Assembly (NCBI RefSeq): GCF_000745975.1
Contig: NZ_JQKJ01000033.1
Span: 1-33,195, forward strand
DNA: 33,195 nucleotides
From: Desulfobacter vibrioformis DSM 8776
GTDB taxonomy: Bacteria > Desulfobacterota > Desulfobacteria > Desulfobacterales > Desulfobacteraceae
Direction: 5' to 3'
How positions within the stretch are numbered: position 1 is the stretch's first letter; each line of letters starts with the position of its first letter. A program made the position numbers and the translations under genes. This document shows positions 901 through 29,607 of the stretch, one piece after another. The notes beneath the pieces were generated by a model. That model ran no database searches. It had not been told where the DNA came from and saw only the letters and a program-made list of their open reading frames with translations.

Positions 901-2037
901 TCAAGATTCATGCTCTGCCTCCAGAATCTGCAGCAATTGGTGCCGTATAAGTATTGTTCTGGCACTCAAATCTATCGTGGCAAACCGAATTACATGTCCT
1001 TGGATAGTCACTGATTCATTAAACATGCTACCAATCGAAGGGTGCAGTAGAATTCCAGTTGCCTTGTCTGAGAGAGGATCTCCCAGCCCTTCCTGAGACC
1101 TCAAATAAGTATAAATTTGGTATAAATAGCCACTGCGTAGCGTTTCTTCTCTATACCAGCCTTTAGTCACAATTGAATTGAATTTGGTATCAATAATGAT
1201 CCGTCTGCCTGAAATTTCATGGCTTAAGATAATGTCTGTTCGCATTGAAGGGAAAATTTTGTCAATGCCCGAACTTTTTTGGTCTATAGCCCAGCCGATA
1301 AATTTTCCAGCATCGACATGCCACCCTTGACCTGACAAAGTAGTGTCATAAAAACCGGCAATTCCTTTTTCATAGAGTTTCCGAATCCAAGTGATTTCCC
1401 GGTCCGGCAACGACAAGTATCTTGTTCCGACTGACTCTGTTGGTAATGCTAAGTTGAACGCAAGGTGAGCTGCGGCAACCATTTTTCTGTCAATTGCATC
1501 GTGCCTTCCAAAACGGCCTACCGACACCTCCGCGCGTCCCGGTTTTTCTCCGACCACACCCATCCGTCTTAAATTGTTCGCAATAGACCTACACCTGTGT
1601 GCCAAAGGTTGCCGTTTTACCAAGCTCGAAATTTCTTCTAATGCTGACCTCACGAAACGATTGCGGGGCGTATCAACGGTCAACTCGTCAAAGCGACAAA
1701 ACACCTTGCCCTTATCAAGAAGCCTATGCCGTTCAGTCTTTAACAAATTAATCCGGCCACGAACGCGGTTCAGAGTCGCCTCGCGAGTCTGGTATCCAAA
1801 ACTTAAATTCCTCTTGATTCGCTGTTCGACCTGTGTGGATAAAATTTCTGCAATTAGGTCGGGTATGTCATCAGGATTTTCTTCAACAGAGACCTGTGAA
1901 GCTTGGTCAAGCTGCCGAAAGAGGTCAGATGCATAAAGCATAAGCAACCAAAGATTCCGCACAGGAATTCTTCCTATGTAACCTGCCTCCTCAAGAGTGG
2001 CGTTGGCTTTTGGTGATATGATTACGACCTCACTCAT
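901..2037 (-). CDS. mcrC: McrC-type nuclease subunit of a McrBC restriction system
   Basis: Nuclease partner of the McrB GTPase in modification-dependent restriction, which cuts DNA carrying modified bases. The 378 residues have the usual McrC plan: an N-terminal helical part (IGRIPVRNLWLLMLYASDLF) that would bind McrB, then a C-terminal PD-(D/E)xK nuclease fold. Its likely catalytic residues are D268 in MRTDIIL and D283/K285 in IIIDTKF. The gene starts three bases after the mcrB stop, so the two are co-transcribed and probably translationally coupled. No frameshift or lost motif is visible, so the subunit looks functional. The family call is secure; the modified base recognised cannot be read from this gene. 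Confidence 0.9.
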   Translation of the reverse strand: MSEVVIISPKANATLEEAGYIGRIPVRNLWLLMLYASDLFRQLDQASQVSVEENPDDIPDLIAEILSTQVEQRIKRNLSFGYQTREATLNRVRGRINLLKTERHRLLDKGKVFCRFDELTVDTPRNRFVRSALEEISSLVKRQPLAHRCRSIANNLRRMGVVGEKPGRAEVSVGRFGRHDAIDRKMVAAAHLAFNLALPTESVGTRYLSLPDREITWIRKLYEKGIAGFYDTTLSGQGWHVDAGKFIGWAIDQKSSGIDKIFPSMRTDIILSHEISGRRIIIDTKFNSIVTKGWYREETLRSGYLYQIYTYLRSQEGLGDPLSDKATGILLHPSIGSMFNESVTIQGHVIRFATIDLSARTILIRHQLLQILEAEHES

Positions 2038-2040
2038 TTT

Positions 2041-4245
2041 TTAGAATCCCTCAAGAAGCCGTTCTCTTGCCTTCTGGGCTTTATCAAGTGAATTAAACCA
2101 ATACTCATCCAAGAGAGGCCCAATTTCTGTGTCAACCACTTGGCGGAACCACTCCCGGGCATCATTCATTGGAATACCAAATGGAGGGGTGACATAGCTA
2201 TGCCCGATGCTGTACTGCTCGCCCAAGCTGGAATCAGATGCTATTTCTGTATTCAGAGACAAAATTCTATTTTCAATTTCATCAAGTATTTCTGTGGCTA
2301 TTCCACATTGAGTTTTCACCCAGTTCTTCCACGCTTTTCCGAGTACTGGTTTTAAATCGATAAAAGCAAATCTTCTCCGTAGCGCCAGATCGACAAGAGC
2401 AAGCGATCTGTCAGCGATATTCATAGTTCCAACCACATAAAGGTTGTCTGGAATAAAAACTCGCTCATCATCTTCACGGCGATATGAAAGCTCTAACGCC
2501 TCATTTGGAGTGCGCTTATCGACCTCCAGCAGAGTCAACATTTCGCCAAATATCTGTGCAGGATTACCTCTGTTGATTTCTTCAATTACAATAACGTGTC
2601 TTGTACTTGGTTCATTTTCGGCGGCTCTGATCATTTCAACGAAAGGGCCATCGACCAAAGTAAGTTTCCCATCACCCGATGGACGCCATCCCCGGACAAA
2701 ATCTTCATATGAAAGATTGGGGTGAAACTGAACGGCTCTCACCTTGCTGTCATTTTTTTGCCCGATAAGAGCAAATGCCAATCTCTTGGCAAGCCATGTT
2801 TTTCCTGTCCCGGGAGGGCCTTGAAGAATGAGATTTTTCTTTGTTCGAAGCCGCTCCAGAATCCTTTCAATCTTCACTCGTTCGATGAAACAACCATCCG
2901 AAATAATATTATCGACTGAATATGGTTCAATCGGAGCAATCGTAATTTCCTCTTCTGGCTCACTTTCCAGCTCGCCCCTTTGAACATCTGTATCAGTAGC
3001 ATTGGGGTGTGCTGATATCCCGCCATCCTTAAAAAGCCAGGCAGCAAGTGAAAGTTCTGGAAAGGAGTGGATTGGATAAGCCTCTTCCTGAAATCGTGTT
3101 TCCAATGTGTCCAGTACAGCTAAATAATCGTTTGCATTACAGCGACCTTTGGGACCATTGAGCCCGATTTTGATATTCAGTTTCTTGCTGATATACCTCT
3201 GAGACTGTCCATCAAGGGTCGGGAAGTTCCATGGCCGAATCCAGTACAACCCCATCGTCAAATTCCAGCCGACACCGAACCTTTCAGTTGCACTGTCATA
3301 AGCAGAAATAAAATCAGTTCTAACATCAGCGTTGTCAGAGTCTGAAAAGATTATAGCTTGGGCAAATATCTCCCATAGGGCATCAATGTCGTCAGGTTTT
3401 CTTTTGTTATCAAACCCAAAGAACCATGATCTCTGGTTGTTAAGTATAGGAATTCCTTCAAATGAATCTGGTATGGCTTCTTCCACTCCCAGAAAAGTTG
3501 CCAATTCAGTTGCGATATTTTTTCTGTTTACATCGGTAATACCACGATTGAAGATGCCCATAGCTGTAAAGGGACAGATGTCCTTCAGGGGACCTGCAGA
3601 ACCATCTTGAAACTGATCTTTCAGATTCGATAAGCCGTCAACTTTTGATGCAATTGAATGTATGCCTTTTATAAGTTCATCTCGTTTTTCCCTGTATAAA
3701 AGGAACTTGTCGGCGATAGCTTCATAAAAACGGGTCCAGAAAAAGCGCCTTTTATCTATAGATGTGTCGCCGAATCGCTCACGCCAATATGGTGCATTCC
3801 TGAATCGGTCAATATCTTGAGACTTATCTTCGAATGAAAAACTGATTAAAGCATCAGTAGCCCAGTCCCCAGGCAAAACACGCCATACAGTGATTCGATT
3901 TGTATAGAAGTACCATTCTCTTGGAGGATCGAAAGGGGTCCATTCAACATCTAAGGTCCGACCATCACCATGGTTCTTTTTTACAACGCCGATTGCCTTG
4001 ATAGCCATTACGGAGACGCTTTGTCCACGATTGTCGAATGGAAGATCATGCTTTCTAGTGTAAGAGGCTTTAATCGCAATCCGGTCACCGGTCTGGATGG
4101 ATTTCACTTGGTCAAGGTACTTGTCTTGGTATCCATTCAGCCAGATTCCGTCATTGAAAAATCTGCTTGTTTGATCCTCAGAGCCGTAAGTCGCCCCAAC
4201 AAACCAACATGCTTTTGATCCGACTCCTTCTGGTTTAGTGGTCAT
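2041..4245 (-). CDS. mcrB: McrB-type AAA+ GTPase with EVE/PUA-like N-terminal domain
   Basis: DNA-recognition and motor subunit of a McrBC restriction system. The first 150 residues (CWFVGATYG, GDRIAIKASYTRK, VEWTPFDPPREWYFYTNRITVWRV) resemble the EVE branch of the PUA superfamily, a reader of modified bases found fused to McrB-like motors. A middle region of unclear fold (about 160-430) follows. The AAA+ motor shows Walker A GPPGTGKT at 476-483, Walker B VIVIEEIN at 551-558 and the McrB signature MNIADRS at 608-614, followed by ALRRRF, a likely arginine finger. McrB proteins use GTP rather than ATP. The gene is followed directly by mcrC. The motor call is firm; the EVE assignment comes from reading sequence pattern only. 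Confidence 0.9.
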   Translation of the reverse strand: MTTKPEGVGSKACWFVGATYGSEDQTSRFFNDGIWLNGYQDKYLDQVKSIQTGDRIAIKASYTRKHDLPFDNRGQSVSVMAIKAIGVVKKNHGDGRTLDVEWTPFDPPREWYFYTNRITVWRVLPGDWATDALISFSFEDKSQDIDRFRNAPYWRERFGDTSIDKRRFFWTRFYEAIADKFLLYREKRDELIKGIHSIASKVDGLSNLKDQFQDGSAGPLKDICPFTAMGIFNRGITDVNRKNIATELATFLGVEEAIPDSFEGIPILNNQRSWFFGFDNKRKPDDIDALWEIFAQAIIFSDSDNADVRTDFISAYDSATERFGVGWNLTMGLYWIRPWNFPTLDGQSQRYISKKLNIKIGLNGPKGRCNANDYLAVLDTLETRFQEEAYPIHSFPELSLAAWLFKDGGISAHPNATDTDVQRGELESEPEEEITIAPIEPYSVDNIISDGCFIERVKIERILERLRTKKNLILQGPPGTGKTWLAKRLAFALIGQKNDSKVRAVQFHPNLSYEDFVRGWRPSGDGKLTLVDGPFVEMIRAAENEPSTRHVIVIEEINRGNPAQIFGEMLTLLEVDKRTPNEALELSYRREDDERVFIPDNLYVVGTMNIADRSLALVDLALRRRFAFIDLKPVLGKAWKNWVKTQCGIATEILDEIENRILSLNTEIASDSSLGEQYSIGHSYVTPPFGIPMNDAREWFRQVVDTEIGPLLDEYWFNSLDKAQKARERLLEGF

Positions 4246-15639: not shown

Positions 15640-16710
15640 TTATTTGTCAACTTGTTTGATCCAAAACAAGGCTGGCGAAGTAGACCTTTTAACTGTTTGG
15701 GTATAAGACATATTGCCGGAGCTGTTTATTCGCCAGTCAATTTCCTTTTGGACCTGGAACCATACAATTCCCTGAACCTTCCATTTGTTCAGCGTCCGGA
15801 ATGCTTCGACAATCCATTTGCTTTTCGCTCCCCCCTGATCTGCGCATGCGGTTTCAAAAATAAAAAGTGGTTTTTGGGGCGCGATGGCATTCAGTTCCCT
15901 GTATATCGGAAAAAAAATATCTTCAAACGTTTTCCAGGAACTTTGCCAGCCGTGTGTCTCCACGGTTCGGGTCGTCCCCCAATTGTATCCGTCCATGCCT
16001 AAAATATCCACATAATCGTCTCCCGGATAATAGGCGCCGGACTTATTCCATCCAGCTGTGGGATCATAAGTCATATTGGGAACCGATTCCGCATTGGGAC
16101 AAAATGCCCAGAGAACCTGGTTTGCGCCTGTACGACGGAACCGATTAACAACATACCGAAATATTTGCTGATAAATATCAGGGCTTTTGGGGCCAAACTC
16201 TTTTTTGGAGGTTCCCCAATGGTATCTTTGGAGGTTCATTTCATGGGCAAAGCGGATAATGAAAGGCTGGTTAAAGGCTTTGGCCTGATGGGCAAAATCA
16301 TTTAAATACAAGTCATATCCACCGTTCAGGATTTTTTGAAAAGGAACCATTTTTTCAATGCCATCCTCATAATACATGGGTTCCCAGGTAATACAGGGAA
16401 TCGCGCCCCGGTGCAATATCGTATTCAGGCTGTCCATGGGGAAACCACCTGTTTGGGACTGGGCTGGCCACTGTAAAAAGAAAACAACCAGGGCAGGGGA
16501 AAGTTTTGTTTCCCGTTCAATTTTATCCAGCTGTTTGCCCGTGACCGGGTATCCGTCCAGGGCCGTCCCCCAAAGTAAGGGCGCAGGGTTGGATGGAGAC
16601 GCTGACATTGAGCAGATCCCCGTGTCAGGTAAAAAAAAAGCCAATATAGCCAGTAAAAATAATGCCTTTTTGAATCTGTTTGTAATTAAAGAAAATAATG
16701 GTTCACTCAT
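15640..16710 (-). CDS. GH26-like secreted glycoside hydrolase
   Basis: Predicted beta-glycanase of clan GH-A, closest in pattern to family 26 (beta-mannanase and related enzymes). An N-terminal signal (residues about 14-33, ALFLLAILAFFLPDTGICS) directs it to the periplasm or surface. The acid/base glutamate is E157 in IIRFAHEMN, matching the GH26 HEMN motif. The probable nucleophile is E286 in PLFIFETACA. Aromatic residues for sugar stacking are frequent (WGTSKK, GMDGYNWG). The start overlaps the end of the glycosyltransferase gene by eight bases. In synthase-dependent polysaccharide operons such a hydrolase trims or releases the polymer. Exact linkage specificity cannot be read; mannan, mixed-linkage glucan and xylan are all possible. 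Confidence 0.8.
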   Translation of the reverse strand: MSEPLFSLITNRFKKALFLLAILAFFLPDTGICSMSASPSNPAPLLWGTALDGYPVTGKQLDKIERETKLSPALVVFFLQWPAQSQTGGFPMDSLNTILHRGAIPCITWEPMYYEDGIEKMVPFQKILNGGYDLYLNDFAHQAKAFNQPFIIRFAHEMNLQRYHWGTSKKEFGPKSPDIYQQIFRYVVNRFRRTGANQVLWAFCPNAESVPNMTYDPTAGWNKSGAYYPGDDYVDILGMDGYNWGTTRTVETHGWQSSWKTFEDIFFPIYRELNAIAPQKPLFIFETACADQGGAKSKWIVEAFRTLNKWKVQGIVWFQVQKEIDWRINSSGNMSYTQTVKRSTSPALFWIKQVDK

Positions 16711-18334
16711 GCTCTTCCGGATGGTTAAAATACAGAACCGTTGTTAAAATGATAAAATGGTAAAAAGCCCAACAAGAGTTGGCAATGATTGCCGCGGCAG
16801 GTTCCCGTTCGTAGTAGAGGCGGTTGATCCCCACAATAACGGCTGCAAAACTTAAAACAGCTGTTAAAATTTGTGGCCATATACTGGAAAGGGGAAGCGC
16901 CTTACTTTGTCCTTTGGGGGTTATACCAAATGAACCCTTAACACCCAAAATCCCAAGAAGTGATGCCTTCATATATACCGGAAAACTGATTGCATTCAGC
17001 AAAATACCTTGAACAAGATCTTTAAACGAGTACATCCGCTGATGAAGCGTACTGAAAAACAAGGTCAGTGAAAGAATAATATATGGCAGGAAAAAAATGA
17101 AATAAATTTCAGGCTTTGAAAAATAGCTGGGAACGTTAAAAAGCAGATATAAAATGGGACAATAAGCCATCACAAAAAATACCCACCCGATGAAATAATG
17201 GGTGCCGGAAAGAAAGTATTCCCACCACTTGGCAGGTTTTAAGCTGAACGGATTTTTAATAAACACCCCGGCAATCGTGCGGAACAATCCGACTGTGCCC
17301 AGGGCCCAGCGGAACTGCTGCCTGAAATAACCGCCTAAATCCTCCGGCCCCATGCCAAAGGCACAAACCTTGTTCAGATATGCGGACTTCCATGCCCTGG
17401 TATGGAATTTAAGGGATGTGGCAAAATCTTCGGTCACGGAAGATTCATCAAAGCCCCCCACATCAGCCAGCGCGTCTGTTCTGAAAATAACGTTGGTGCC
17501 ACAGCAAAACATGGCATCCTGATTACTTTTACCTTCGCAAATATATTCATAGAATACTGCTTGCTGCAGCCCGGATGCCCTGGCTACCCGATTGAATTCA
17601 AAGTTTGAGTAATATTGTGGTGTTTGAACGAAAGCCAATCGTGAATTGCCCTCCATCATGGCGACAAGGGGTTCGACAAAGTCCGGAAAAGGGTTCATGT
17701 CCGCATCAAAAACAATAATGTACTTTTCCTTTTCATTGCGGGTTTTTTCCTGAAATGGAAAAAACTGAAAACCTTCCCGGTGATTGCCTTCTACAAAATC
17801 AAGGAAATCGTTGATCATTCCTGCTTTGGCACCATGCCACCTGCGCCTGAAAAGATTGACGCCAATACCTTGGCATAAGACCTCCACATCTTTTTTGTAG
17901 GCTTCCATCTTTTCGGGTGTATCCCAGGCTGTGTCATAACGGGTGTCATCAAGAAAATAGAGGTGCTTGTTGGGGTAAGTCAGATTGTAAAAACATGTGA
18001 TCGTATCCTCAACCACTTCCAGGGGCTCTTTATACGAGGCAACCACAATCGCCACCGGGGGATAAACACGAAGTGCCGCTGGCTCCACCTCGGCAGGTGT
18101 GTTGGATTTAGGATTCAAGATGACATTCAGGACATTTAAAAAATAACCGATGCTGTGAATCAGCACAAAAGTTTCAGCGCAGAGCAGACAAAACGCAACG
18201 ATTTTTTCAAACCAGAGATAGGGTTCAATAATAAAAAGAACCGTGCGCGCGATCAGATACAAAAAAACCGCCAGCATGGTCAGGATCAATGCCAGCCCCA
18301 GGAGTGCGGTTTTAGAAATGGAAAAAGCGTTCAT
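16703..18334 (-). CDS. Cellulose-synthase-like family 2 glycosyltransferase (membrane)
   Basis: Processive inner-membrane polysaccharide synthase of the BcsA/HasA type. From ATG 18334 it has 543 residues: two N-terminal membrane helices (about 10-35 and 44-72), a cytosolic GT-A domain, and four or five C-terminal helices. Catalytic motifs: DD 129-130, DAD 210-212, TED 301-303 and QQFRW 339-343 (the QxxRW of processive synthases). There is no C-terminal PilZ domain, unlike BcsA; a separate PilZ gene lies at 23341. I prefer 18334 to the longer frame from 18412 because AGGAAA precedes it by five bases and the upstream gene ends at 18348. The sugar nucleotide used is unknown. Confidence 0.9.
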   Translation of the reverse strand: MNAFSISKTALLGLALILTMLAVFLYLIARTVLFIIEPYLWFEKIVAFCLLCAETFVLIHSIGYFLNVLNVILNPKSNTPAEVEPAALRVYPPVAIVVASYKEPLEVVEDTITCFYNLTYPNKHLYFLDDTRYDTAWDTPEKMEAYKKDVEVLCQGIGVNLFRRRWHGAKAGMINDFLDFVEGNHREGFQFFPFQEKTRNEKEKYIIVFDADMNPFPDFVEPLVAMMEGNSRLAFVQTPQYYSNFEFNRVARASGLQQAVFYEYICEGKSNQDAMFCCGTNVIFRTDALADVGGFDESSVTEDFATSLKFHTRAWKSAYLNKVCAFGMGPEDLGGYFRQQFRWALGTVGLFRTIAGVFIKNPFSLKPAKWWEYFLSGTHYFIGWVFFVMAYCPILYLLFNVPSYFSKPEIYFIFFLPYIILSLTLFFSTLHQRMYSFKDLVQGILLNAISFPVYMKASLLGILGVKGSFGITPKGQSKALPLSSIWPQILTAVLSFAAVIVGINRLYYEREPAAAIIANSCWAFYHFIILTTVLYFNHPEEHE

Positions 18335-18347
18335 GGATTTCCTAGGC

Positions 18348-21300
18348 TTAAAATTGATATCGGACAGCTGCCTGAAAACGATTGGTGTCCCACTCCCCGG
18401 AGCGATGCACAAGGCCTTCTACATTTACCATCCAATGCGGATTAAATTCCAGATGCCATTTGAGGCTTAATTCTATGGATGGATTTTGATCTGAATTCTG
18501 CCCCAGGGAAACGACAATATCATAAAAATGGCGTGGACTTCCGCAAAAAAGCAATTTTGAAAGATCATGATACCATTCAAACGATATCCTTCCTTCCAAA
18601 TATTCATCAGGCGTCCAGTAGGGGTGAATGATATCAATGAGATCGCCCTTTTGATATTGGTAGATATTGGTTTCCCGGGTGTCGCGGTATTCAGCCTTTA
18701 AATTTGTTTTAAATACGTTCGGGTGATCGGTGAACGCGTATCCAACGGACAATTCTCCTCTTTTTTCATGATTGTCGTCGTTATAGGAGAGGTATTGACC
18801 CTTTGCGCCAATATCCAACTGCCTGGTCGGATTGGATGTTATACCGAGCCACCACGCATCCACCTGGGTTTCCTGCCGGATCGCAAACTCATTATCAAAC
18901 ACATCCATCCGGTCAAAACCCAGGCCGATTTTTAAATAATCTTTCAGGTTTAACCATAAGTGGGCATTGCCGCTGTCGGTTCCTTCGAACTTTCCGCCAT
19001 TACCGTATTTTTTTGTCCACCGAAACATGCCTTGCAGTTCCGGGGTCATAACACCGGACAGTTCAAATGTGTGGCCGTTAAATTCATAGGTATCATGGTC
19101 ACCCAGGGCAGATTCCAGCCACTGGTGCCCCATGATACGGAAATGATAACGACATAAAAATGGTATGTCCACCTGAAGATCATACCGCTGGTGCTCGATT
19201 TGGGAGAGTTCACCCCGCCCCTGCTCCTTGGCATAGTAGTAATCTGTGCGGACCGATGGATTGCGCCGGATCTTGTTTGCCTCAAGTGCTGTCCGGGCTA
19301 AATTGTGCAAGGGATCAAGGTCAAGCAATGTCTGGTAGTACACAGCCTCCTGGTTGCATAACCCAAGCGAGCAATCCACCTGGGCTTGATCAAAAAGCGC
19401 TTCCTGGTTTCCGGGGTCATGGGCTGCCAGTTCCGACAGCGTGTTCCTGGCGGATAAAAACCGCAGATGATAGGCATGGTATTTGGCTTTTTGCTCTAAA
19501 AAGGCGGTTTTTTGAATTCGATACGCCGGCAATAATTGAATGCGAATTTCTTCCAGTCTTTGGTTCAGATATGATGCCTTGAGATATGATGCTTTGCGTA
19601 TCGGTAAAAATGGTTTCTGGAAAAAAAGCGCATAGCCCTCATAGATCGAATCTTTCTGAACCATTTCCTTTAATTTTTCCAGCCGGCTGTGAACCGCGGT
19701 ATCATTTAAACCCATTAATAATTCATTTGACAATTCATTCAGGTTTGTAAGAAGCATTTGATCCACCGGTGGATTATATAACTTCGCATAAGTTTCAAAG
19801 GCGCTGTCCATATGCTTTGCCCAGCATTGTGTGCGCGCCTGTTCAATCAGAACAACCGGATTTTGGGGCTGTGCCGACAAAAGCGCTTCATATGTCTCAA
19901 CCGCTGCCTCATACTCCCTTGACCATGCCTGTACACGCGCAAGCCCCAGATTGATTTTGTAGTTCTCCGGAAATTGGGTGTTCAGCTCTTTAAATAATTC
20001 CCTGGCTTGTCCATATTGTTTGTCAACCCCCAATAGTTCGGCCAGTTCCAGTTTCGCAGGGAAGATTTCCGGATCCTTTTTTAAGGCGGTTTCATAGCAG
20101 AAAATGGCCTGGGAATTGAGACCGTGGACAGCAAATAAGCGGGCCCATTGCACTAACGCCATGGGGCGCTCCAATGCGGGATCAAACAATTTTTCCATAA
20201 ACGCTTTTGATGCCATATCTAAATGGCCATCACTGAAATGATAATAAAATTCGGCCTCTATGTGTTTAGGGTCTAAGGCGTGTGCCTGCTGAAAAGCAGC
20301 GTGGGCTTTTTCCGGATCATTCAGTTTGAGCGCCGTCTTTCCCAATCCGATAAATGCCTTGATTTTATCCGGCATCGTTATAGACGGCATTTGGGTGGCA
20401 CAGATCTCATAGGCATCATAAGCTGTATCATATTGTTTTAAATGGTAAAAGGTCTGCGCTTTTAATAAGCAGGCTTGGTGATACCATGCTGCAATGTCGC
20501 CGGTTCCGGTTTGTTCATCGTTATTTTCAGCGTTTGTAATCCATGTGTTATTGATCTGAACGATGCTTGGTTCCCTGAAAAACTGGTCAAACAAGTCCCG
20601 GGCCTGGAGAAACGATTTTTCCTGCAGCTTTAATTGTCCAAGCTCCAGGAGCAGTTTTTCCTTGGGAAATCCTTTATAAATGAGCATGCGATAGCGCCCC
20701 TCGGCTTCTTCATAACGTTGTGTACTACGTAAGAGTCCTGCCAATTTCAACTGGACGGTAAAATCATCGGGACGGGAGTTCAAGTAATCGCGGTAAATGT
20801 TTTCACTTTTGTAAAAATCCCCCCACATGTTCATAAGGTCAGCAAATTTCAGGTTTAATCCCGGCTGCTCGCCACCCATTGATCTGGCTTTTAAAATAAG
20901 GGTCCGACATTTCGCAGCATGGCCTGCATTGGCTTCCACATAGGCGGCTTCGCTTAAATCATCCGGATCAAGGGAAAAATGATCTTCACGGGAAATCAGC
21001 GCTTGATAAATTTCCATCGCTTGTTCGTATTGTCCTATTGCGGAATACGCACGGCCAAGCTGGCGCATTAACTCCGGTGATTTTGTTTTCCGGACAGTGG
21101 GCCGGACAGTGGGGCTGTTGAGCAAAAGAATCGCATCTTCATAGCGTTTGCTCCAAAGATAGGCATCGATAATCCCTTTCAGGGCATCAGGGTGATCAGG
21201 GTGTTTGCCGAGGATAATTTGAAACTGCGCAATGGCATCGGATAAAAGATGCTTTTTATATGATAAAAGCCGGGCCAGTGCCAGCCGTGCATCCAAATCA

Positions 21301-21461
21301 GGTATTTGCTCTGACTCGGGTATGATGGTTTCCCCCGCCAGAACACATTGGGGAGAAAATGTGATACAGCCGGCCAGGGCAATAATGCTGCAGGCAGTGG
21401 CCCAAAGAGTTCTCATCCGCCGGATTTTTGAAATACGCAAGCAATTATTCCCGTAGGGCAT
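18348..21461 (-). CDS. TPR protein with outer-membrane beta-barrel (BcsC/PgaA-like export porin)
   Basis: 1037 residues. A signal sequence comes first (about 16-42, MRTLWATACSIIALAG). Degenerate tetratricopeptide repeats follow from about 50 to 700, with repeated DALKGIIDAYLWSKRYEDAI, YEQAMEIYQALI and AKLELAELLG type units. The last ~310 residues are rich in alternating aromatic strands and end in RYQF, with a terminal phenylalanine as in outer-membrane barrels. This is the plan of BcsC, PgaA and AlgK/AlgE-type exporters, which scaffold the periplasm and pass a polymer through the outer membrane. ATG 21461 has GGGAG upstream and overlaps the preceding gene by 17 bases; ATG 21416 is an alternative. 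An LAGC stretch resembles a lipobox but fits a barrel poorly. Confidence 0.85.
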   Translation of the reverse strand: MPYGNNCLRISKIRRMRTLWATACSIIALAGCITFSPQCVLAGETIIPESEQIPDLDARLALARLLSYKKHLLSDAIAQFQIILGKHPDHPDALKGIIDAYLWSKRYEDAILLLNSPTVRPTVRKTKSPELMRQLGRAYSAIGQYEQAMEIYQALISREDHFSLDPDDLSEAAYVEANAGHAAKCRTLILKARSMGGEQPGLNLKFADLMNMWGDFYKSENIYRDYLNSRPDDFTVQLKLAGLLRSTQRYEEAEGRYRMLIYKGFPKEKLLLELGQLKLQEKSFLQARDLFDQFFREPSIVQINNTWITNAENNDEQTGTGDIAAWYHQACLLKAQTFYHLKQYDTAYDAYEICATQMPSITMPDKIKAFIGLGKTALKLNDPEKAHAAFQQAHALDPKHIEAEFYYHFSDGHLDMASKAFMEKLFDPALERPMALVQWARLFAVHGLNSQAIFCYETALKKDPEIFPAKLELAELLGVDKQYGQARELFKELNTQFPENYKINLGLARVQAWSREYEAAVETYEALLSAQPQNPVVLIEQARTQCWAKHMDSAFETYAKLYNPPVDQMLLTNLNELSNELLMGLNDTAVHSRLEKLKEMVQKDSIYEGYALFFQKPFLPIRKASYLKASYLNQRLEEIRIQLLPAYRIQKTAFLEQKAKYHAYHLRFLSARNTLSELAAHDPGNQEALFDQAQVDCSLGLCNQEAVYYQTLLDLDPLHNLARTALEANKIRRNPSVRTDYYYAKEQGRGELSQIEHQRYDLQVDIPFLCRYHFRIMGHQWLESALGDHDTYEFNGHTFELSGVMTPELQGMFRWTKKYGNGGKFEGTDSGNAHLWLNLKDYLKIGLGFDRMDVFDNEFAIRQETQVDAWWLGITSNPTRQLDIGAKGQYLSYNDDNHEKRGELSVGYAFTDHPNVFKTNLKAEYRDTRETNIYQYQKGDLIDIIHPYWTPDEYLEGRISFEWYHDLSKLLFCGSPRHFYDIVVSLGQNSDQNPSIELSLKWHLEFNPHWMVNVEGLVHRSGEWDTNRFQAAVRYQF

Positions 21462-22098
21462 CTTGCAGCTCCCTGATCGCTTGGTCCTGTTTGCCGGCCC
21501 AAATCAAGACAAACGCGTATTTTTTCTTGATTTCCCGGTCATCCGGCAACGCATGGATCAAGTATTGGTAATGCGATATGGCTGCGTCATAACGTTTGAC
21601 CCAGCTCAGAACCTGTGCAAGTTTCAGGCGCGCCTTATGGTCGTTGGGATGTGTTTTGAGATAATCCGTGAAAATCGTCTCTGCATCGGCGTAATTCTTC
21701 ATCGTGATATACAGGTCAGCCATGGCAAGCTGAGCTTGGTCATCCAATTGCTTTTTGGGTAATGATTCAAGGCGTTTCAGGGCTTCTGTATGATCACCGC
21801 TCCAAAAATATGCCTTGGCCACCCCAATTTTAGCTTCCATCAGTTCCGGCTTTTCTTTCAACACTTTTTTATAGGCTTGGATTGCCTCCGGATAACGTTT
21901 GGCATAGGTCAAAAGCTTGGCCAGCTCCAATCTGGCTTTCCAATCCGGAATATCTTCAATCTGGGCTTGGTTTTCCCCCGGAGGATTTATGAATTCGTTT
22001 TGTGAACCGGCCTGGGATCCTGCGAAGCGGACGGGGAAAACGCATACACAAAAAGAAATAGTCAGACATGCCGCAAAAAGAAGTTTAGCATTTTTCAT
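21445..22098 (-). CDS. Periplasmic TPR protein
   Basis: 217 residues with an N-terminal signal peptide (KLLFAACLTISFCVCVFPV, then RFAGSQA) and about four TPR units (KRYPEAIQAYKKVLKEKPEL, NYADAETIFTDYLKTHPNDH, KRYDAAISHYQYLIHALPDD). The repeats resemble those in the next gene, suggesting duplication within the locus. GGGAG precedes ATG 22098. The start overlaps the upstream TPR gene by four bases and the end overlaps the downstream barrel gene by 17, so the three are translationally coupled. Likely role: part of the periplasmic scaffold between the synthase and the outer-membrane porin. No enzymatic motif is present. Confidence 0.82.
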   Translation of the reverse strand: MKNAKLLFAACLTISFCVCVFPVRFAGSQAGSQNEFINPPGENQAQIEDIPDWKARLELAKLLTYAKRYPEAIQAYKKVLKEKPELMEAKIGVAKAYFWSGDHTEALKRLESLPKKQLDDQAQLAMADLYITMKNYADAETIFTDYLKTHPNDHKARLKLAQVLSWVKRYDAAISHYQYLIHALPDDREIKKKYAFVLIWAGKQDQAIRELQDALRE

Positions 22099-22796
22099 AT
22101 AGAATCTCCCAATGCATCATAGTATTCAATAATCGCTTCATTGAAAGCCCCCTTCCATGAGAGTACCCGGGCAAGGTGTATCCGGGCAAGCCGGTGTTGG
22201 GGATGGGCAGCCAACACGCTGCGGAATAATGAAATGGATTCATCGTAGCGCTTCATCCATCCGAGCATTTCTCCCAGTTCTAATTTAAAGGAAACGGATT
22301 CGGGCTCCAATTGCAATAGTTTACGATATAATTGTTCGGCTGTCTGAACATTACCCTGCCGCTTATACAGCACTGCCAAGCGTGCCAACCGACGTTTATC
22401 CTCAGGCCATTTATCCGGACCCGGGCGATAGAGCCCGATGGCGTCATCAATCCGGTCGAATTGCTCATACAGTCCTGCCAATTGGAAAACCAGGGATTCA
22501 TTATAAGGCTCTTTTTTTAAAATATCTTTAAATATTGCAGTGGCTTGATCAAAACGGCGGATTGAAAAGCAGGCAGAGCCTAAATGCATCATTGCCGTGG
22601 GGCTTTGCAATCCTGATTGAATGGCTGCTTTGTATAAAGGTATGGCACCTTCAAAATCGTTTTTTTCGAAACACTGTTCTGCCTTGCGAAAGAATACCCA
22701 CTTTTCTTGGATTTGATGGTAGCCAAACGTAGCAAGTAGGGCCGTGGCCATTAAAATCAAACCGAAAACAAGGTATTGACGTTTTTTTAGGCTCAT
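22095..22796 (-). CDS. Membrane-anchored TPR protein
   Basis: 233 residues. One N-terminal membrane helix (about 8-25, YLVFGLILMATALLATFG) after a short basic start puts the rest in the periplasm. Five or so TPR units follow (DFEGAIPLYKAAIQSG, RFDQATAIFKDILKKEPYN, NVQTAEQLYRKLLQLEPES, RYDESISLFRSVLAAHPQ). It may tether the export scaffold to the inner-membrane synthase. No good ribosome-binding site is visible before ATG 22796. The stop overlaps the next gene's start (ATATGA). It is 104 bases downstream of the STAS gene and may share its transcript. Confidence 0.82.
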   Translation of the reverse strand: MSLKKRQYLVFGLILMATALLATFGYHQIQEKWVFFRKAEQCFEKNDFEGAIPLYKAAIQSGLQSPTAMMHLGSACFSIRRFDQATAIFKDILKKEPYNESLVFQLAGLYEQFDRIDDAIGLYRPGPDKWPEDKRRLARLAVLYKRQGNVQTAEQLYRKLLQLEPESVSFKLELGEMLGWMKRYDESISLFRSVLAAHPQHRLARIHLARVLSWKGAFNEAIIEYYDALGDSI

Positions 22797-22875: not shown

Positions 22876-22903
22876 GGATTTATCCATCAGGATTTATCCA
22901 TCA
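22876..22903. repeat. 14-bp tandem duplication at the STAS gene stop codon
   Basis: GGATTTATCCATCA occurs at 22876-22889 and again at 22890-22903. The second copy contains the stop codon of the STAS gene (rc of 22901-22903). It resembles the duplication at the aroA stop. Confidence 0.8.
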
Positions 22904-23242
22904 GGCAATTGCTTTTAACGCTTCCTCCAAGGTATTGAAAAAAGGAAAAATACGGTTCATTTTGGTTAAATCAAATATGCTTCGTGTGGTATTATGGATG
23001 TTGCAAATCACAAGGCGCCCCCCCTTATCCATCGCTTTGAAACTTGCGATCAGGGCGCTTAGGCCACTGCTGTCAATAAATTCGACATTGGCAAGGTCCA
23101 GTATGATCCGCTGATGCCCGTCGCTGATCCAGTCAATCATCCTGCCTTTAAACACTTTGGCCACCAATGCATCGATCTGTTTTTCAAGGGGAATCACCAC
23201 CAGCACATGATCTATCTCTTTTGAATTGATTTCCATTGCCAA
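22901..23242 (-). CDS. STAS-domain protein (anti-sigma-factor antagonist type)
   Basis: 113 residues, a single SpoIIAA-like STAS fold. The hallmark VEFIDSSGLSALI places the phosphorylatable serine at S58, in the loop where SpoIIAA-type antagonists are phosphorylated by a partner kinase. Central strands (RIILDLANVEF, RLVICNI) are typical. No anti-sigma kinase or phosphatase is encoded nearby, so its partner is elsewhere. ATG 23242 and ATG 23236 are both possible; the second is better spaced from AAAAGG. It heads the polysaccharide gene cluster, so partner switching could control either transcription or assembly of that machine. Confidence 0.88.
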   Translation of the reverse strand: MAMEINSKEIDHVLVVIPLEKQIDALVAKVFKGRMIDWISDGHQRIILDLANVEFIDSSGLSALIASFKAMDKGGRLVICNIHNTTRSIFDLTKMNRIFPFFNTLEEALKAIA

Positions 23243-23340: not shown

Positions 23341-24147
23341 ATGGATAAACGCCGTGAGATCCGCCGCTCAATCGAGTCGATTATATTGCCTTTTTTGGGC
23401 ACCCGGGAAATTGATCATGAGCCATTTCAATTTTTAATCATGGATATCAGCGTGAACGGATTGAAAATAGCTATCCCCAGATGGCTGGTCGGCAGGGATA
23501 TCTTAAAGCAGGATGAATTGATCAATATGCATATCCCGTTCCGTCTGGGTGCGGCTGAATATAAACATGGGCGGGTCATGTGGAAGAAATATGACGATAC
23601 CGTTCCAGGTGATACTTACGGCATTTATATGGAAAACAGGATATCTCCTTATGATCCGGTATACATCTCACTGGAAACATTGAAAATAGATATTGATTTT
23701 CAGGAATTTGATTCTGTGGAAAATATATCGATTAAACTTCTAAAAGATATGTACCTATTGAAAAAAGGTATTTTAGTCTACCTGAAACACTTATTGCCCT
23801 ATTTCACGCGAATAACAGAATATCGCGGTGAAGAATATAAGCAGCTCAAAGATATTTTTTTATCGGATATCATCAAAAAGGTTGGCCAAAATTATGAAAA
23901 GTTGTTTGCGCTTTATGAGGAAACAAGAAATATATGCTGTTCTCTGAATAACATCTCAAAGTCCATTGACCTTGAGGAACTCAGGGAGCTGGTCGAATCC
24001 GAAATCAATATTGAAATACTGAAATCCACATTTGAATCCGAATCCATCCTGCCATATCTTAACGCAATCAAGATTCTCGAACAAAAACAATATGCCAATT
24101 ACAATATGATTGTCATGCTGTATGTGAAAGAACTGGAATACACATAA
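23341..24147 (+). CDS. PilZ-domain protein with helical C-terminal extension
   Basis: Probable c-di-GMP receptor. The N-terminal ~115 residues show the two PilZ signatures: arginines in MDKRREIRRS (RxxxR at residues 4-8 or 5-9) and DISVNG (D35, S37, G40; the DxSxxG motif), followed by the beta pattern LKIAIPRW and GRVMWKK. Residues about 120-268 are helical, charged and unassigned (YLLKKGILVYLKHLLPYF, ELVESEINIEILKSTFES). They may be the effector part. The gene is divergent from the STAS-to-hydrolase cluster, with only 98 bases between the two starts, so shared control is plausible. The adjacent glycosyltransferase has no PilZ domain of its own, which makes this a candidate receptor for it. 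Confidence 0.85.
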   Translation: MDKRREIRRSIESIILPFLGTREIDHEPFQFLIMDISVNGLKIAIPRWLVGRDILKQDELINMHIPFRLGAAEYKHGRVMWKKYDDTVPGDTYGIYMENRISPYDPVYISLETLKIDIDFQEFDSVENISIKLLKDMYLLKKGILVYLKHLLPYFTRITEYRGEEYKQLKDIFLSDIIKKVGQNYEKLFALYEETRNICCSLNNISKSIDLEELRELVESEINIEILKSTFESESILPYLNAIKILEQKQYANYNMIVMLYVKELEYT

Positions 24148-24336: not shown

Positions 24337-26514
24337 ATGAGTCAAAAGGCGACATGGATTATCCTGGCAGTGATCGTATCTGTTTCAGCATTCTGGTTTA
24401 TTTTTACGGGCGGGTTGATTCCGGAACGGCATACGGATCAGGCCCCCCCGGAAACGGAATCCGGCGATCAGGTCATTACGCTGAAATTCGGCCATGACAT
24501 GCCCGAAGCCAGTGCCCAGCATGAGACGGCCATCCGCTATGCTAAAGTCGTAAATTATAAAACCCAGAACCGCATCAAAATAGATGTTTACCCGGCCCAG
24601 TCACTGGGCACAGACCAGAATATGCTTGAAATGGCCCGGGAAGGACAACTGGCCATTATCCTGCCGCCAACAGCCAAGATGACGACCCTTGTCCCGGAAC
24701 TCCAGGTCCTGGATCTGCCGTTTTTATTTCCGGATCGACAGAGCGCGTATGCGGTGCTGGACGGGGCACCGGGCCAGAGCCTGTTAAATAAATTAAAGGA
24801 CCACGGCCTGGTCGGCGTATCGTTCTGGGAAAGTGGATTTAAACAGTTTACAGCCAACCGCCCCATCCGAACCCCCCGGGATTTCCACGGGCTGAATATC
24901 CGGGTGATGAAAAGCCAGGCCATTATGGATCAATACCGGGCCCTGGGTGCCAATCCCATCCCCATTGATTTTCATAAAACCTATCAGGCCCTTGCAGATG
25001 GAACCGTGGACGGTCAGGAGAATCCCCTTGTATCCATTGTGAATATGAAATTTTATGAGGTTCAGCCCTATATGACGATCAGCAACCACGGGTATCTGGC
25101 CCAGGCACTGGTCTTCAGTAAAACCGTTATAGACTCCCTGCCACTGGAAATCCAAAATATTCTTTTGGCCTCGGGGAAAGAAATCGTTTCTTTCGAACGT
25201 CAGGAAATCATGGAAGATGAAAAAAAGTTTTTCAAGACCATCCAGGATTTCGGAACACGTGTCCATCATTTGACAGAGCAGGAAAAAAAGGAATTTCGCC
25301 AATCCTTTGAATCGATTTACCTCAATTACCCGGAAGACAAAGGGAAAAAAATTCTTTCCATGATCCAGAATTTTTTGATCAGAAGGAAGATCACGCAACA
25401 GAATGAGATCGTGATCGGCTTGAATGCGGACATGAACTCCGCCTCAGCCCTTTCCGGAAAGGCCATTCACAGGGGAATGATACTGGCCGTGGATGAAATC
25501 AACCGCTCCGGCGGCATCCTGGGGAAAAAAATCCGCGTGGTTGCCAGGAACAACTCTGGTCTCAGTGCCCGGGGATTGGAAAATCTAAAGGAATTTGCTG
25601 CCATGGACAACCTCCTGGCAGTGATGTGCGGAATATACAGTCCCATTGCCCTTGCATCAATTGATTTTATCCACCAGGAAAAAATTATTTATTTAGATCC
25701 ATGGGCCGCGGCCACAAAAATTGTGGATAACGGACACACGCCCAACTATGTATTCCGGGTTTCCGTCCGGGATGCCGAAGCCGGACCTTTTCTGGTCAGC
25801 AAGGCCCGGAACAGATACAAAAACATTGCCCTGCTTCTGGTCAATGACGGATGGGGCCGGGGGAATGAAAAGGGAATGCTTGCGGCACTGAAGCAGCAGG
25901 GAATGGCTCCCACGGATGTGCAATGGTTTTCCTGGGGGCAGGCAGATATGACCGAACAGCTCTCCGCCATTGAAACATCCGGAGCAGAAGTTATCCTGAT
26001 GGTTTCTCCCGCCGCTGAAGGCGCAACCATCATCAAAAATATGGCTGCCCGGAAAAAGAAACTGCCCATTATATCCCACTGGGGAATTACAGGCGGAATG
26101 TTTTGGGAATCGGTAAAAAAGGAACTGGAAGCCGTAGATCTGAGTTTTCTTCAGACATATTCCTTTTTTGGGGAACAGACCCAGACGGCCCAAAACCTGA
26201 TGGATGAATATTTTAAAATGTTTCAGGTCCAAACCCCGGGGGATATATTTGCCCCGGTAGGAACTGCCCATGCCTATGACCTGGTCAGGTTAATCGCCAT
26301 GGCAGTGGAAAAGGCCCGGACCACGGACCGGTCTTCCGTCAGGGATGCCATGGAGAACCTGGGAGCGTATCCGGGTGTGGTTAAAAATTACAACCCGGCA
26401 TTTACGCCGGAAGACCATGACGCCCTGGGACCTGACTCCTTTCTGTTATGCCGGTACAATGCCACCGGCCACATCATTCCCATTCTCGACATAGACCCTG
26501 AAAAAAACAAATAA
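24337..26514 (+). CDS. Membrane-anchored fusion of TRAP DctP-type and LivK-type ligand-binding domains
   Basis: 725 residues. An uncleaved-looking N-terminal helix (about 7-26) is followed by two complete periplasmic binding modules. Residues about 46-345 are a DctP-type TRAP solute-binding domain (ITLKFGHDMPEASAQHETA, the carboxylate-binding arginine in LNIRVMKS at R189, DGTVDGQENPL). Residues about 356-715 are a LivK/Peripla_BP_6 domain (AIHRGMILAVDEINRSGGIL, VMCGIYSPIALASIDF, and LLLVNDGWGRG). Neither TRAP membrane subunits nor Liv permease genes are near. Instead a histidine kinase starts 11 bases downstream, so this is probably a sensor input and not a transporter part. AAGGAGG precedes the ATG by eight bases. 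Ligands are unknown. Confidence 0.88.
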   Translation: MSQKATWIILAVIVSVSAFWFIFTGGLIPERHTDQAPPETESGDQVITLKFGHDMPEASAQHETAIRYAKVVNYKTQNRIKIDVYPAQSLGTDQNMLEMAREGQLAIILPPTAKMTTLVPELQVLDLPFLFPDRQSAYAVLDGAPGQSLLNKLKDHGLVGVSFWESGFKQFTANRPIRTPRDFHGLNIRVMKSQAIMDQYRALGANPIPIDFHKTYQALADGTVDGQENPLVSIVNMKFYEVQPYMTISNHGYLAQALVFSKTVIDSLPLEIQNILLASGKEIVSFERQEIMEDEKKFFKTIQDFGTRVHHLTEQEKKEFRQSFESIYLNYPEDKGKKILSMIQNFLIRRKITQQNEIVIGLNADMNSASALSGKAIHRGMILAVDEINRSGGILGKKIRVVARNNSGLSARGLENLKEFAAMDNLLAVMCGIYSPIALASIDFIHQEKIIYLDPWAAATKIVDNGHTPNYVFRVSVRDAEAGPFLVSKARNRYKNIALLLVNDGWGRGNEKGMLAALKQQGMAPTDVQWFSWGQADMTEQLSAIETSGAEVILMVSPAAEGATIIKNMAARKKKLPIISHWGITGGMFWESVKKELEAVDLSFLQTYSFFGEQTQTAQNLMDEYFKMFQVQTPGDIFAPVGTAHAYDLVRLIAMAVEKARTTDRSSVRDAMENLGAYPGVVKNYNPAFTPEDHDALGPDSFLLCRYNATGHIIPILDIDPEKNK

Positions 26515-26525
26515 AGACATCCGGG

Positions 26526-28640
26526 ATGAAACATCAGACAGCGCCAAAACACAAACAACTGCAGCAGAAAATCAGGAAAAGCTATCTGGGATTTGTGGCC
26601 GGACTGATGCTGGCCGTTCTCGCGACGGTGTCCTGGGTCCTGGTGACGGAATTGGGAAACGGACTGGAGGACTCTCTTTCAGTAAAAGGGGTTCATATCT
26701 CCCGGCGCATGGATCTGCGCCTGGAATCCCTGCTCGATACCATTAAAAATTTCAGCCGGAACCATTTTATTATCAACGGAATCGTCCATCCCAAGAATCA
26801 GAAAGATTATCTGGGTATCATGGTCGAAGATTTCAGCCATCTCCAGAGTATCAGCGGAATCACCATCCTGGATTACGCTGGAAATCTCATCTCATCAAGT
26901 ATGGTGACCCCGCCGAATTATAAAAGAAGCGTCTACCTGCGCCCGGTCCTGGAAACCGGGAAAAGCATCCAGGAATTCTACGGAAACGGGAACCATCTTC
27001 TGCTGATAGAGCCCATTCTCCATTATGACACCCCCATCGGCGCCGTGGTGGCCGAAGTAGACCTGCTTGACCTGATGACGCGTCTTCTTCCCGAGGATGA
27101 GACGGAATTTTACCGGCTCTATGCCGGTGACCGGATGTTGATTTCCCTGAATTACAAAAAAAATGCCAAATATATCATGGCAGATACAATCGCCGGCCCG
27201 GAAGGAATGGCTATCCTCAACCGCCTGGGTATCCGTATTGAATCCGGTAAGCTTCAGCAGGTTCATTATGAGCCCCTGATTGCCGTCATCATCCAGCTGA
27301 TCTTTATCGGAGTGATTTTTCTTTTACTTGCTGCCTTGATCTCTATCCGTCTGGGCAACAGCTTGGCCCGGCCCGTTTTGAACATGGTGAACAAAGTGCG
27401 TTCCTCTGATGATCTGGACGCCACGGTTTCCTTCAGCCCGGCCGGGACAGGTGATGAACTGGAAATCCTGGCAGAGGCCCTGGACAAAAGAGATGCACAG
27501 CTCAGACAATACCGGGAAAATGCCATGATCCTGCTGGAAAAGAGTGAAGCCCGGAACCGCGCCGTGGTCGATAATCTTCTGGACGGCATCATCACCATTG
27601 ATGAAAAGGCAATTATTGAAACCTTTAATCCGGCAGCGGAAAAAATTTTCGGGTATTCCCGGGAAGAGGTCATTGGCCGGAATGTAAAAATACTGATGCC
27701 GGGTGCCTACCACCGAAACCATGATTCATATATCCAAAATTACCTGACCACCGGCACGAAAAAGATCATCGGCATAGGACGGGAGGTGTCAGGGAAAAGA
27801 AAAGACGGCACTGTTTTTCCCATGGACCTGTCCGTAAATACCATGATGGTCCGGAATCATGAATTATTCACCGGCATCATCCGGGACATCACCCAGCGCA
27901 AACAGGCAGAAGCGCAACTGGTCGAGGCCAAGGAAAAAGCAGAGGAAGCCAATCGGTTAAAATCCGAATTTCTCGATGTTATGAGCCATGAACTGCGCAC
28001 CCCTTTAACGGTGATGCTCGGCAACCTCCCTTTGCTTTCCGATCCCGGGGACATGCCTCCGGCCGAAGAAATCGTTGAGATCGTGGAAGATATAGATGAT
28101 GCAGGACAGCACCTGCGTCAACTGATCAACGATATTCTGGACATCAGTAAAATCGAGGCCGGGCACATGCTTTTGAACCTGGAAGCCCTGGATATGGAAG
28201 CTCTGGCAGATGATTGCATTGCCACGATTCAGGGGTTGGCACAGAAGAAAAATCTCACGCTGGAAAAGTCCGGTCCATCCATCCGTATTACGGCAGATCC
28301 CCTGCGCATAAAACAGGTTCTGTTGAATCTGCTGTCCAATGCAGTGAAATTCACAGACACTGGCAAAATTTGCATAACATTTGAACCGGATCAGGATAAC
28401 GCCCTAATCCGGGTAACGGATACGGGCTGTGGAATTGACTCAGCCAAACAGGAGCAGATTTTTGAAAAATTTACCCAGGCGGACGGCAGCGCCACCCGGG
28501 CAGCGGAAGGAACCGGCCTTGGACTGGCCATAACCAAAAAACTCGTGGAACTTCACGGCGGGAGCATCGGGGTGGAAAGCGTCCCGGGCAAAGGAAGCAC
28601 ATTTTGGTTTTCCCTGCCCCTGGCGTCATCCAGGACCTGA
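26526..28640 (+). CDS. Hybrid-free sensor histidine kinase (Cache, HAMP, PAS, HisKA, HATPase)
   Basis: 704 residues. Membrane helices at about 20-41 and 251-275 enclose a ~210-residue periplasmic domain of dCache type (ISGITILDYAGNLI, YLRPVLETGK, PILHYDTPIGAVVAEVDLLDL). A HAMP linker (about 276-330) and a PAS domain (about 341-457, NLLDGIITIDEKAIIETFNP, FPMDLSV) come next. The kinase core has the phospho-acceptor histidine H488 in FLDVMSHELRTPL, the N box VLLNLLSNAVKFTD, the G1 box DTGCGID and the G2 box GTGLGLAI. No receiver domain is attached. It lies 11 bases after the binding-protein fusion and about 100 before the GGDEF regulator, its likely partners. The start has only a weak ribosome-binding site, suggesting coupling. 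Confidence 0.93.
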   Translation: MKHQTAPKHKQLQQKIRKSYLGFVAGLMLAVLATVSWVLVTELGNGLEDSLSVKGVHISRRMDLRLESLLDTIKNFSRNHFIINGIVHPKNQKDYLGIMVEDFSHLQSISGITILDYAGNLISSSMVTPPNYKRSVYLRPVLETGKSIQEFYGNGNHLLLIEPILHYDTPIGAVVAEVDLLDLMTRLLPEDETEFYRLYAGDRMLISLNYKKNAKYIMADTIAGPEGMAILNRLGIRIESGKLQQVHYEPLIAVIIQLIFIGVIFLLLAALISIRLGNSLARPVLNMVNKVRSSDDLDATVSFSPAGTGDELEILAEALDKRDAQLRQYRENAMILLEKSEARNRAVVDNLLDGIITIDEKAIIETFNPAAEKIFGYSREEVIGRNVKILMPGAYHRNHDSYIQNYLTTGTKKIIGIGREVSGKRKDGTVFPMDLSVNTMMVRNHELFTGIIRDITQRKQAEAQLVEAKEKAEEANRLKSEFLDVMSHELRTPLTVMLGNLPLLSDPGDMPPAEEIVEIVEDIDDAGQHLRQLINDILDISKIEAGHMLLNLEALDMEALADDCIATIQGLAQKKNLTLEKSGPSIRITADPLRIKQVLLNLLSNAVKFTDTGKICITFEPDQDNALIRVTDTGCGIDSAKQEQIFEKFTQADGSATRAAEGTGLGLAITKKLVELHGGSIGVESVPGKGSTFWFSLPLASSRT

Positions 28641-28740: not shown

Positions 28741-29607
28741 ATGAACAAGATACTGATTGTGGATGATAATGAAAAAACACGGACCATGCTCAAACGCCAT
28801 CTGAAAAAGGAAAAGTATGAAATTTTTGAAGCCAAGGATGGTTTTGAAGCTCTGAAAATCGTTGAAACCGACAAGCCCGGGGTCATTCTTCTGGATGTTA
28901 TGATGCCGAAAATCAGCGGGATGGACGTATGCCGGCGTATCCGGGCCAGGCATGACAGTGACCTGTTCCACATCATCATGCTCACCGGGGTTGCCACGGC
29001 CGAAAGCAAGGTATCCGGACTGGATATGGGGGCAGATGATTATGTGACCAAACCCTTTGACATTGTGGAACTGCTTGCCAGGATCCGGGTGGGATTTCGT
29101 TCCGTTGCCAACCGGAAACAGGCAATAATTGACAACCTGACCCAGGTTTATAATAGAAATTTTTTCACTGCCTATTTAAAAAAAGCCATAGAACAGGCAC
29201 ATCGGTACAATTATGATCTGTCCCTGATCCTTACGGATATTGATCACTTCAAAAAGGTTAATGACACCCACGGCCATTTGGCCGGGGATAAAATTCTGAC
29301 AGAAATGGGATCCCTTTTGAAAAAATTCTGCCGGGCCTCGGATCTGGCGGTGCGGTGGGGCGGGGAAGAGTTTATCATTGTGATGCCGGAAACCAATATT
29401 GCCGGCGGGACAGTCCTGGCGGAAAAAATAAGAGCAGGGGTCGCTGCTCATGATTTTCCGGTGGTTTCAGGCATAACTGCCAGTTTTGGTGTGGCAACCC
29501 TGAAAAAAGAGGGGGCGGACAGACTATTGAAGGATGCTGATGAAGCGCTATATACGGCAAAAGAAAATGGAAGAAACCAGGTGGTCACCTATAGCGAAGA
29601 AGGATAA
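28741..29607 (+). CDS. Response regulator with GGDEF output (diguanylate cyclase)
   Basis: 288 residues. Receiver domain 1-120 with acidic pocket D8/D9, phospho-acceptor D52 in LLDVMMP and K104 in YVTKPFD. The GGDEF domain (about 125-285) has an intact active site RWGGEEF (207-211) and catalytic TDIDHFKKVND, so it should make c-di-GMP from two GTP. The feedback I-site RASD (198-201) lies exactly five residues before GGEEF, so product inhibition is expected. This is the PleD/WspR style of output. It follows the histidine kinase by 100 bases and is the natural phosphate acceptor. GGAG lies nine bases before the ATG. Confidence 0.94.
   Translation: MNKILIVDDNEKTRTMLKRHLKKEKYEIFEAKDGFEALKIVETDKPGVILLDVMMPKISGMDVCRRIRARHDSDLFHIIMLTGVATAESKVSGLDMGADDYVTKPFDIVELLARIRVGFRSVANRKQAIIDNLTQVYNRNFFTAYLKKAIEQAHRYNYDLSLILTDIDHFKKVNDTHGHLAGDKILTEMGSLLKKFCRASDLAVRWGGEEFIIVMPETNIAGGTVLAEKIRAGVAAHDFPVVSGITASFGVATLKKEGADRLLKDADEALYTAKENGRNQVVTYSEEG

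Follow-up and report, generated by a model that had tools for sequence, protein, structure and literature searches.

Periplasmic binding proteins (SBPs) of the DctP and LivK families usually serve transport. LuxP is a soluble SBP, and the DctB protein of Bacillus subtilis is of the DctP type. LuxQ reads AI-2 via LuxP, as passages of PMC8534201 describe; in the DctB-DctS-DctA system of B. subtilis a kinase for C4 acids has an accessory co-receptor at its side, according to passages of PMC6978683; and in the BvgS and EvgS kinases and the CdgH cyclase two SBP-like domains in series feed one enzyme, as stated in parts of PMC8534201, PMC4352136 and PMC5431781. A DctP-LivK fusion was not found described among the matches listed from the titles and abstract openings of the open-licence literature. 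Here we analyze such a fusion, encoded in a 33,195-nucleotide stretch of DNA from Desulfobacter vibrioformis DSM 8776 (the window), and we conclude with good confidence that it is a tethered two-module co-receptor for a dCache sensor, and not a transport protein, which gained its DctP module once. The features on which the analysis turns are these:

23341..24147, + strand: protein with a sub-threshold PilZ match, upstream of the fusion (PF07238, 19.9 bits; cut-off 22.5)
24337..26514, + strand: DctP-LivK fusion, predicted membrane-anchored co-receptor (open ORF, 725 aa; Pfam, AlphaFold2)
24343..24405, + strand: N-terminal hydrophobic helix of the fusion, residues 3-23, predicted membrane anchor (AlphaFold2; hydrophobic segment in 59/63 fusions)
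24487..25329, + strand: DctP domain, residues 51-331, with conserved K169, R189, E228, N229 and H251 (Pfam, conservation)
25405..26424, + strand: Peripla_BP_6 (LivK-like) domain, residues 357-696, with conserved W456, R474, W506, H581 and Q606 (Pfam, conservation)
26526..28640, + strand: dCache-PAS-HisKA-HATPase_c histidine kinase, 704 aa (Pfam, with dCache_1 below cut-off; model)
26658..27275, + strand: dCache sensor region in the periplasmic part of the kinase, residues 45-250, common to the partners of the fusions (alignment, model, Foldseek)
28741..29607, + strand: response regulator with GGDEF, predicted c-di-GMP output (PF00072 and PF00990, Pfam)

The first half of the fusion is a complete DctP domain (PF03480, residues 51-331, 290 bits, E 2.2e-86) and the second a complete Peripla_BP_6 domain (PF13458, residues 357-696, 145 bits, E 6.6e-42), so that both folds which the first-pass annotation had read in one chain, behind a single N-terminal hydrophobic helix, are present by Pfam. 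TIGR00787 (dctP) exceeds its NCBIfam cut-off in the fusion, and the urea/branched-chain SBP families of NCBIfam match its second half only below cut-off. The AlphaFold2 model, built from a 47-row alignment, has a mean pLDDT of 91.8, a helix at residues 3-23 and two well-folded halves, with residues 25-42 below a pLDDT of 50; its pTM is 0.67, and the mutual orientation of the halves is therefore uncertain. Among the 50 Foldseek matches listed for this model all fall on the first half (best 4ovs), and the LivK assignment of the second half rests on sequence, not on Foldseek. A strongly hydrophobic N-terminal segment precedes the DctP domain in 59/63 fusions; the four exceptions include L118, which is cut, and L142, whose start codon is probably misplaced. 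A crude lipobox pattern was seen in 5/63. Within its own 4.47 Mb draft genome the fusion is the sole full-length match.

The kinase starts at 26526, 11 bases past the fusion stop at 26514, and the receiver-GGDEF gene begins 100 bases after the kinase. A Cache-type kinase at this distance had been proposed from the sequence, and it holds: PAS, HisKA and HATPase_c are found by Pfam, and the dCache fold is recognized by model and Foldseek, with Pfam dCache_1 sub-threshold (21 bits, cut-off 45). The modelled sensor region (pLDDT 93) resembles the dCache sensor domains of DctB, KinD and, lower down, LuxQ; DctB with bound malonate or succinate and KinD with bound pyruvate are among its top six Foldseek matches, and the Vibrio cholerae LuxQ domain 3c38 comes at rank 47. 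A sequence search of the PDB with the kinase N-terminus returned no match. Pfam dCache_1 is likewise below cut-off or absent in seven further partners of fusions or DctP-only proteins that were scanned.

A dCache-type sensor domain is encoded in the next gene at 63/63 fusion loci tested, at L150 and in the window; the count omits L097, L129 and L146, which stop at contig ends, and L150, where the sensor gene follows an interrupted fusion ORF. The next-gene proteins of the 63 loci and the window (n = 64) all match, at 153 bits or better, a dCache HMM that was built from these same proteins, and the N-terminus of the window kinase alone matches 64/64 by BLAST, itself included, with a minimum of 62 bits. 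The gap between fusion and sensor gene is at most 30 nt in 61/64 loci, with a 4-base overlap in 23, suggesting that the two genes are translationally coupled. By BLAST, the effectors of the 64 partners are a histidine kinase in 47 (39 with a receiver), GGDEF in 15 and unclassified in 2, namely L098, cut by a contig end, and L142, which is short and has a separate GGDEF ORF next. The partners at L104, L110 and L115 carry GGDEF-EAL in place of the kinase, again with sub-threshold dCache_1 (Pfam). The first-pass annotation, made from the window alone, could not have shown how widespread the fusion is, that dCache sensors also accompany stand-alone relatives of each half, or that the effector is of GGDEF type in 15/64. 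A separate downstream GGDEF regulator is present in some fusion loci and is not universal.

The same association was seen from the kinase side, where a dCache alignment was searched against 389 genomes of the class and 395 of the phylum. It matched 23 places in 19/389 class genomes, and 20 of these adjoin a gene for a fusion (5), a DctP-only protein (1) or a LivK-only protein (14). The kinases L195:4626-6818 and L196:4734-7031 have a related dCache domain and no adjoining SBP gene, and their genomes also carry a fusion; the L197 place ends at a contig edge. Four of the 395 phylum genomes were matched: the window's, G615 and, weakly, G658 and G632.

No genes for TRAP or Liv permeases were found in the window (Pfam on 23 ORFs; tblastn), as the first-pass annotation had stated for the adjacent genes, and DctM, DctQ and LivH were found at 0/68 fusion loci (67 plus the window) by tblastn above set score limits, in flanks of varying length: at least 5 kb on both sides in 43 of the 67 and at least 2.5 kb in 51. 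The tblastn references were verified as DctM, DctQ and Liv permease by Pfam, and DctM and DctQ pass the same limits in 8/8 DctP-only loci. A fused LivM-ATPase reference matches four fusion loci through its ATPase part only; the match is strong at L140 and weak at L119, L124 and L170. At L140:377-1756, from Zoogloea oleivorans, a pair of matches to Liv-like ABC ATPases (33% over 483 aa) is found some 6 kb upstream of the fusion, at the edge of the sequence, and a Liv permease may lie just past that edge. With a sensor gene next to the fusion and no such permease gene found nearby, at homologous loci as in the window, the earlier proposal that the fusion serves as a sensor input rather than in transport is strongly supported.

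Full fusions number three in 86 genomes of the same family and five in the 389 class genomes searched with a threshold of E 1e-60, the window's included in both, and a sample of 395 phylum genomes held the window's alone. From 146 relatives in a scan of GTDB species genomes the best 80 loci were taken, and four of these (L091, L092, L095, L147) were already among the finds of the family, class and phylum searches. Among these best 80, 67 are further fusions with both halves over at least 590 aa; the other 13 comprise five cut by contig ends (L155-L157, L160, L161) and eight DctP-only loci. By phylum label the 67 fall in Pseudomonadota (46), Campylobacterota (9), Thermodesulfobacteriota (5) and Nitrospinota (2), with one each in Planctomycetota, Myxococcota, Bdellovibrionota and SAR324 and one in an unassigned gammaproteobacterium, so that at least seven phyla are represented among the best 80 of 146 relatives, as labelled in the genome records; many of the genomes were assembled from metagenomes (MAGs), and a phylum with a single record may reflect mis-binning. 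Named strains with a fusion include Dechloromonas denitrificans ATCC BAA-841, Amphritea atlantica DSM 18887, Oceanospirillum beijerinckii DSM 7166 and Zoogloea oleivorans Buc. Chance or an assembly artefact of a single contig is ruled out by the 67 or more further fusions, and confinement to the window's family by the class search and the GTDB scan.

Each half also occurs alone. Among the stand-alone LivK relatives, BLAST gave twelve with at least 40% identity (L040-L042, L044, L073-L079, L087), and in 12/12 the large ORF that comes next encodes a related dCache domain, at 34-70 bits; the kinase core lies in the dCache ORF in 10/12 (BLAST, with Pfam for L040, L041, L042, L073 and L074) and one ORF beyond it in L075 and L087. 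The L086 stand-alone LivK (38% by BLAST, 41% in the class search) is followed by a hybrid kinase without a match to the dCache model, and some more distant stand-alone LivKs have GGDEF partners (L080, L194) or a Liv permease neighbour (L083), with an ambiguous neighbourhood at L082. On the DctP side, the L043 protein, 54% identical and DctP-only, has a hybrid kinase encoded after it, and the sensor of this kinase reaches 188 bits against the model of the fusion partners. Directly downstream of that kinase, L043:5660-6883 encodes a protoglobin-GGDEF protein, likely a gas-sensing cyclase. The two genes after the DctP-only relative L084 (42%) encode SPOR-domain proteins, neither DctM nor a kinase, and stand-alone DctP relatives at 42-46% identity adjoin DctQ and DctM. 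A ligand could not be guessed from the TRAP-linked DctP relatives, since their neighbours are mixed in three loci (L163, L090 and L168: amidase, amidohydrolase, FAA hydrolase, gamma-glutamyltranspeptidase, AFOR and others).

In the LivK-half tree the 47 fusions form one clade (97/94) and, with an outgroup root, join 12 sensor-paired LivKs (89/70), inside a larger group (98/98) to which the other sensor-paired LivKs and L082 also belong. The DctP-half tree, which excludes L166, L160 and L161, separates the fusions and L043 from 16 others (15 labelled TRAP, plus L084) at 96/99, and DctM or DctQ adjoins the TRAP-labelled DctPs. In the dCache tree a branch at 95/84 divides the 47 fusion partners and the L043 kinase from all the LivK-only partners and the three sensors without an SBP. 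Fusions alone as one clade were rejected by the DctP tree (p-AU 0.034) and not by the dCache tree (0.24); L043 may well have arisen inside the fusions by loss of LivK. These groupings are consistent with a single fusion event in which the LivK-dCache pair was already in place, and it looks as if the DctP module was added once to a LivK-type SBP that had a dCache sensor as its partner. Thirteen GGDEF-type partners and L142 form one group (100/100) across Campylobacterota and Gammaproteobacteria, suggesting that this type of partner was transferred between phyla.

Candidate pocket residues are conserved in both halves. In the DctP half, K169, R189, E228 and H251 are found in 63/63 fusions and N229 in 62/63, and R189, E228, N229 and H251 also in 15/15 TRAP relatives. 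The scan patterns included fusion residues 91-99 and 164-171, where conservation is biased, and because K169 lay in a search pattern the unbiased set is R189, E228, N229 and H251. We take R189 to be the carboxylate-site arginine, by analogy with R147 of SiaP. In the LivK half, W456, F473, R474 and G507 are found in 63/63, D479 and Q606 in 62/63, W506 in 61/63 and H581 in 60/63, and each of these eight is present in 17/17 stand-alone LivKs paired with a kinase or cyclase. Among four other Liv proteins, F473 occurs in 4/4, D479 and G507 in 3/4, and W456, H581 and Q606 in 1/4 each; F473, D479 and G507 thus appear to be general Liv residues, and W456, H581 and Q606 would fit sensor-paired LivKs. 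In the AlphaFold2 model most candidate pocket residues sit at the ends of strands or directly behind them, and since SBP clefts usually lie there we infer a place in the cleft.

In D. vibrioformis a c-di-GMP output is possible, given the GGDEF regulator downstream, the weak PilZ match upstream and a divergent polysaccharide-type cluster. The PilZ-like protein at 23341..24147 is a possible c-di-GMP receptor, and its membership of the sensor module is uncertain. On the reverse strand, 15640-22796 encodes a GH26-like protein, a GT2 with cellulose-synthase similarity and three TPR proteins (Pfam), a gene run divergent from the PilZ-fusion-kinase-GGDEF genes and possibly for exopolysaccharide synthesis. 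A STAS-domain protein (22901-23242, reverse strand, E 5e-23) lies between this cluster and the sensor genes. Elsewhere in the window, 901-4245 (reverse strand) encodes a McrBC-like pair, an AAA_5 ATPase and a McrBC component, likely a restriction or defence system.

We propose that the DctP and LivK modules would each close on a small molecule, an organic acid being likely for the DctP module, and that the fusion would dock on the dCache domain that the neighbouring kinase carries. Its ligand state would alter kinase activity, in a direction that we can only infer, and the kinase would act on the downstream receiver-GGDEF protein, presumably by phosphotransfer, and so set c-di-GMP. A fuller account, in which the fusions are widespread two-analyte co-receptors, two SBPs fused once and tethered, both docking on one dCache domain, with the kinase or cyclase reading their combination (AND, OR or ratio) and setting c-di-GMP, is a real possibility that we hold tentatively. 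The AND or comparator input suggested in the first-pass annotation may be one form of it.

It is unlikely, and still to be taken seriously, that ligand sensing falls to one half alone, with the other serving for docking or as a spacer; the system would then read a single ligand through a decorated co-receptor. Conservation is lower in the LivK half (53%) than in the DctP half (68%), L043 keeps its kinase without a LivK, and the LivK-only relatives have no DctP; the LivK half also correlates less with the kinase sensor in tree distance over all 54 taxa (0.37 vs 0.86 for DctP, partial Spearman). This last advantage fades to about equal (DctP 0.70, LivK 0.63) once 14 divergent taxa are dropped, the window and its near relatives among them, and the correlation was rejected as proof of which half contacts the kinase. 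The conserved candidate pocket residues in both halves and the match of W456, H581 and Q606 to stand-alone sensor-paired LivKs also speak against it. Rather doubtful is an arrangement in which the dCache domain of the kinase is the main ligand sensor, as in DctB, with the role of the fusion limited to ligand delivery or competition and as many as three inputs in all: ligand-bound DctB and KinD are among the first six Foldseek matches, yet LuxQ is matched as well (rank 47) and reads AI-2 only through LuxP, in the account given in sections of PMC8534201. The regular pairing with an SBP also suggests dependence on it. That the fusion is a transport SBP for unlinked TRAP or ABC permeases, with the neighbouring kinase regulating transport genes, is very improbable, since the usual transport role of both families, the DctQ and DctM genes beside stand-alone DctP relatives (42-46%) and the Liv-like ATPases near one fusion (L140) are set against DctM, DctQ and LivH near 0/68 fusions, a dCache sensor gene next in every testable locus, an anchor-like hydrophobic N-terminus in 59/63 and the position of both halves in clades apart from the sampled transporter SBPs.

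If the tethered co-receptor reading is true, the fusion and its partner form a portable chemosensory module over several phyla, in which SBP domains were combined, added and perhaps lost while the sensor type stayed constant and the output varied between histidine kinases and GGDEF or GGDEF-EAL enzymes. The LivK-only, fused and DctP-only members would then be a natural series for studying how one receptor integrates two inputs. The stand-alone LivK and dCache pairs resemble the fusion system in their LivK domain, which is homologous, and in their dCache partner, whose homology is distant (34-70 bits), but they lack the DctP module and their sensors lie across the 95/84 branch from the fusion partners. 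BvgS, EvgS and CdgH resemble the fusion system in feeding tandem SBP-like domains into one kinase or diguanylate cyclase; their two domains are both PBPb-type and lie within the kinase or cyclase chain, whereas the fusion joins two other families in a separate polypeptide, the same-chain arrangement being absent here, with a stop at 26514 and a new start at 26526. DctB-DctS-DctA likewise places a co-receptor beside a kinase, but it needs the DctA transporter and has no second SBP module, whereas no transporter gene was found near the fusion. In LuxP-LuxQ of Vibrio harveyi, as is proposed for the window, a kinase with a tandem-PDC (dCache) domain takes its signal from a periplasmic binding protein, as passages of PMC8534201 indicate; there one SBP of one fold serves one ligand, whereas here two unrelated SBP folds share one tethered chain. 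By analogy, the fusion would belong with the SBP-coupled dCache sensors LuxP-LuxQ and DctB-DctS, and its two-fold tethered chain would be the new element.
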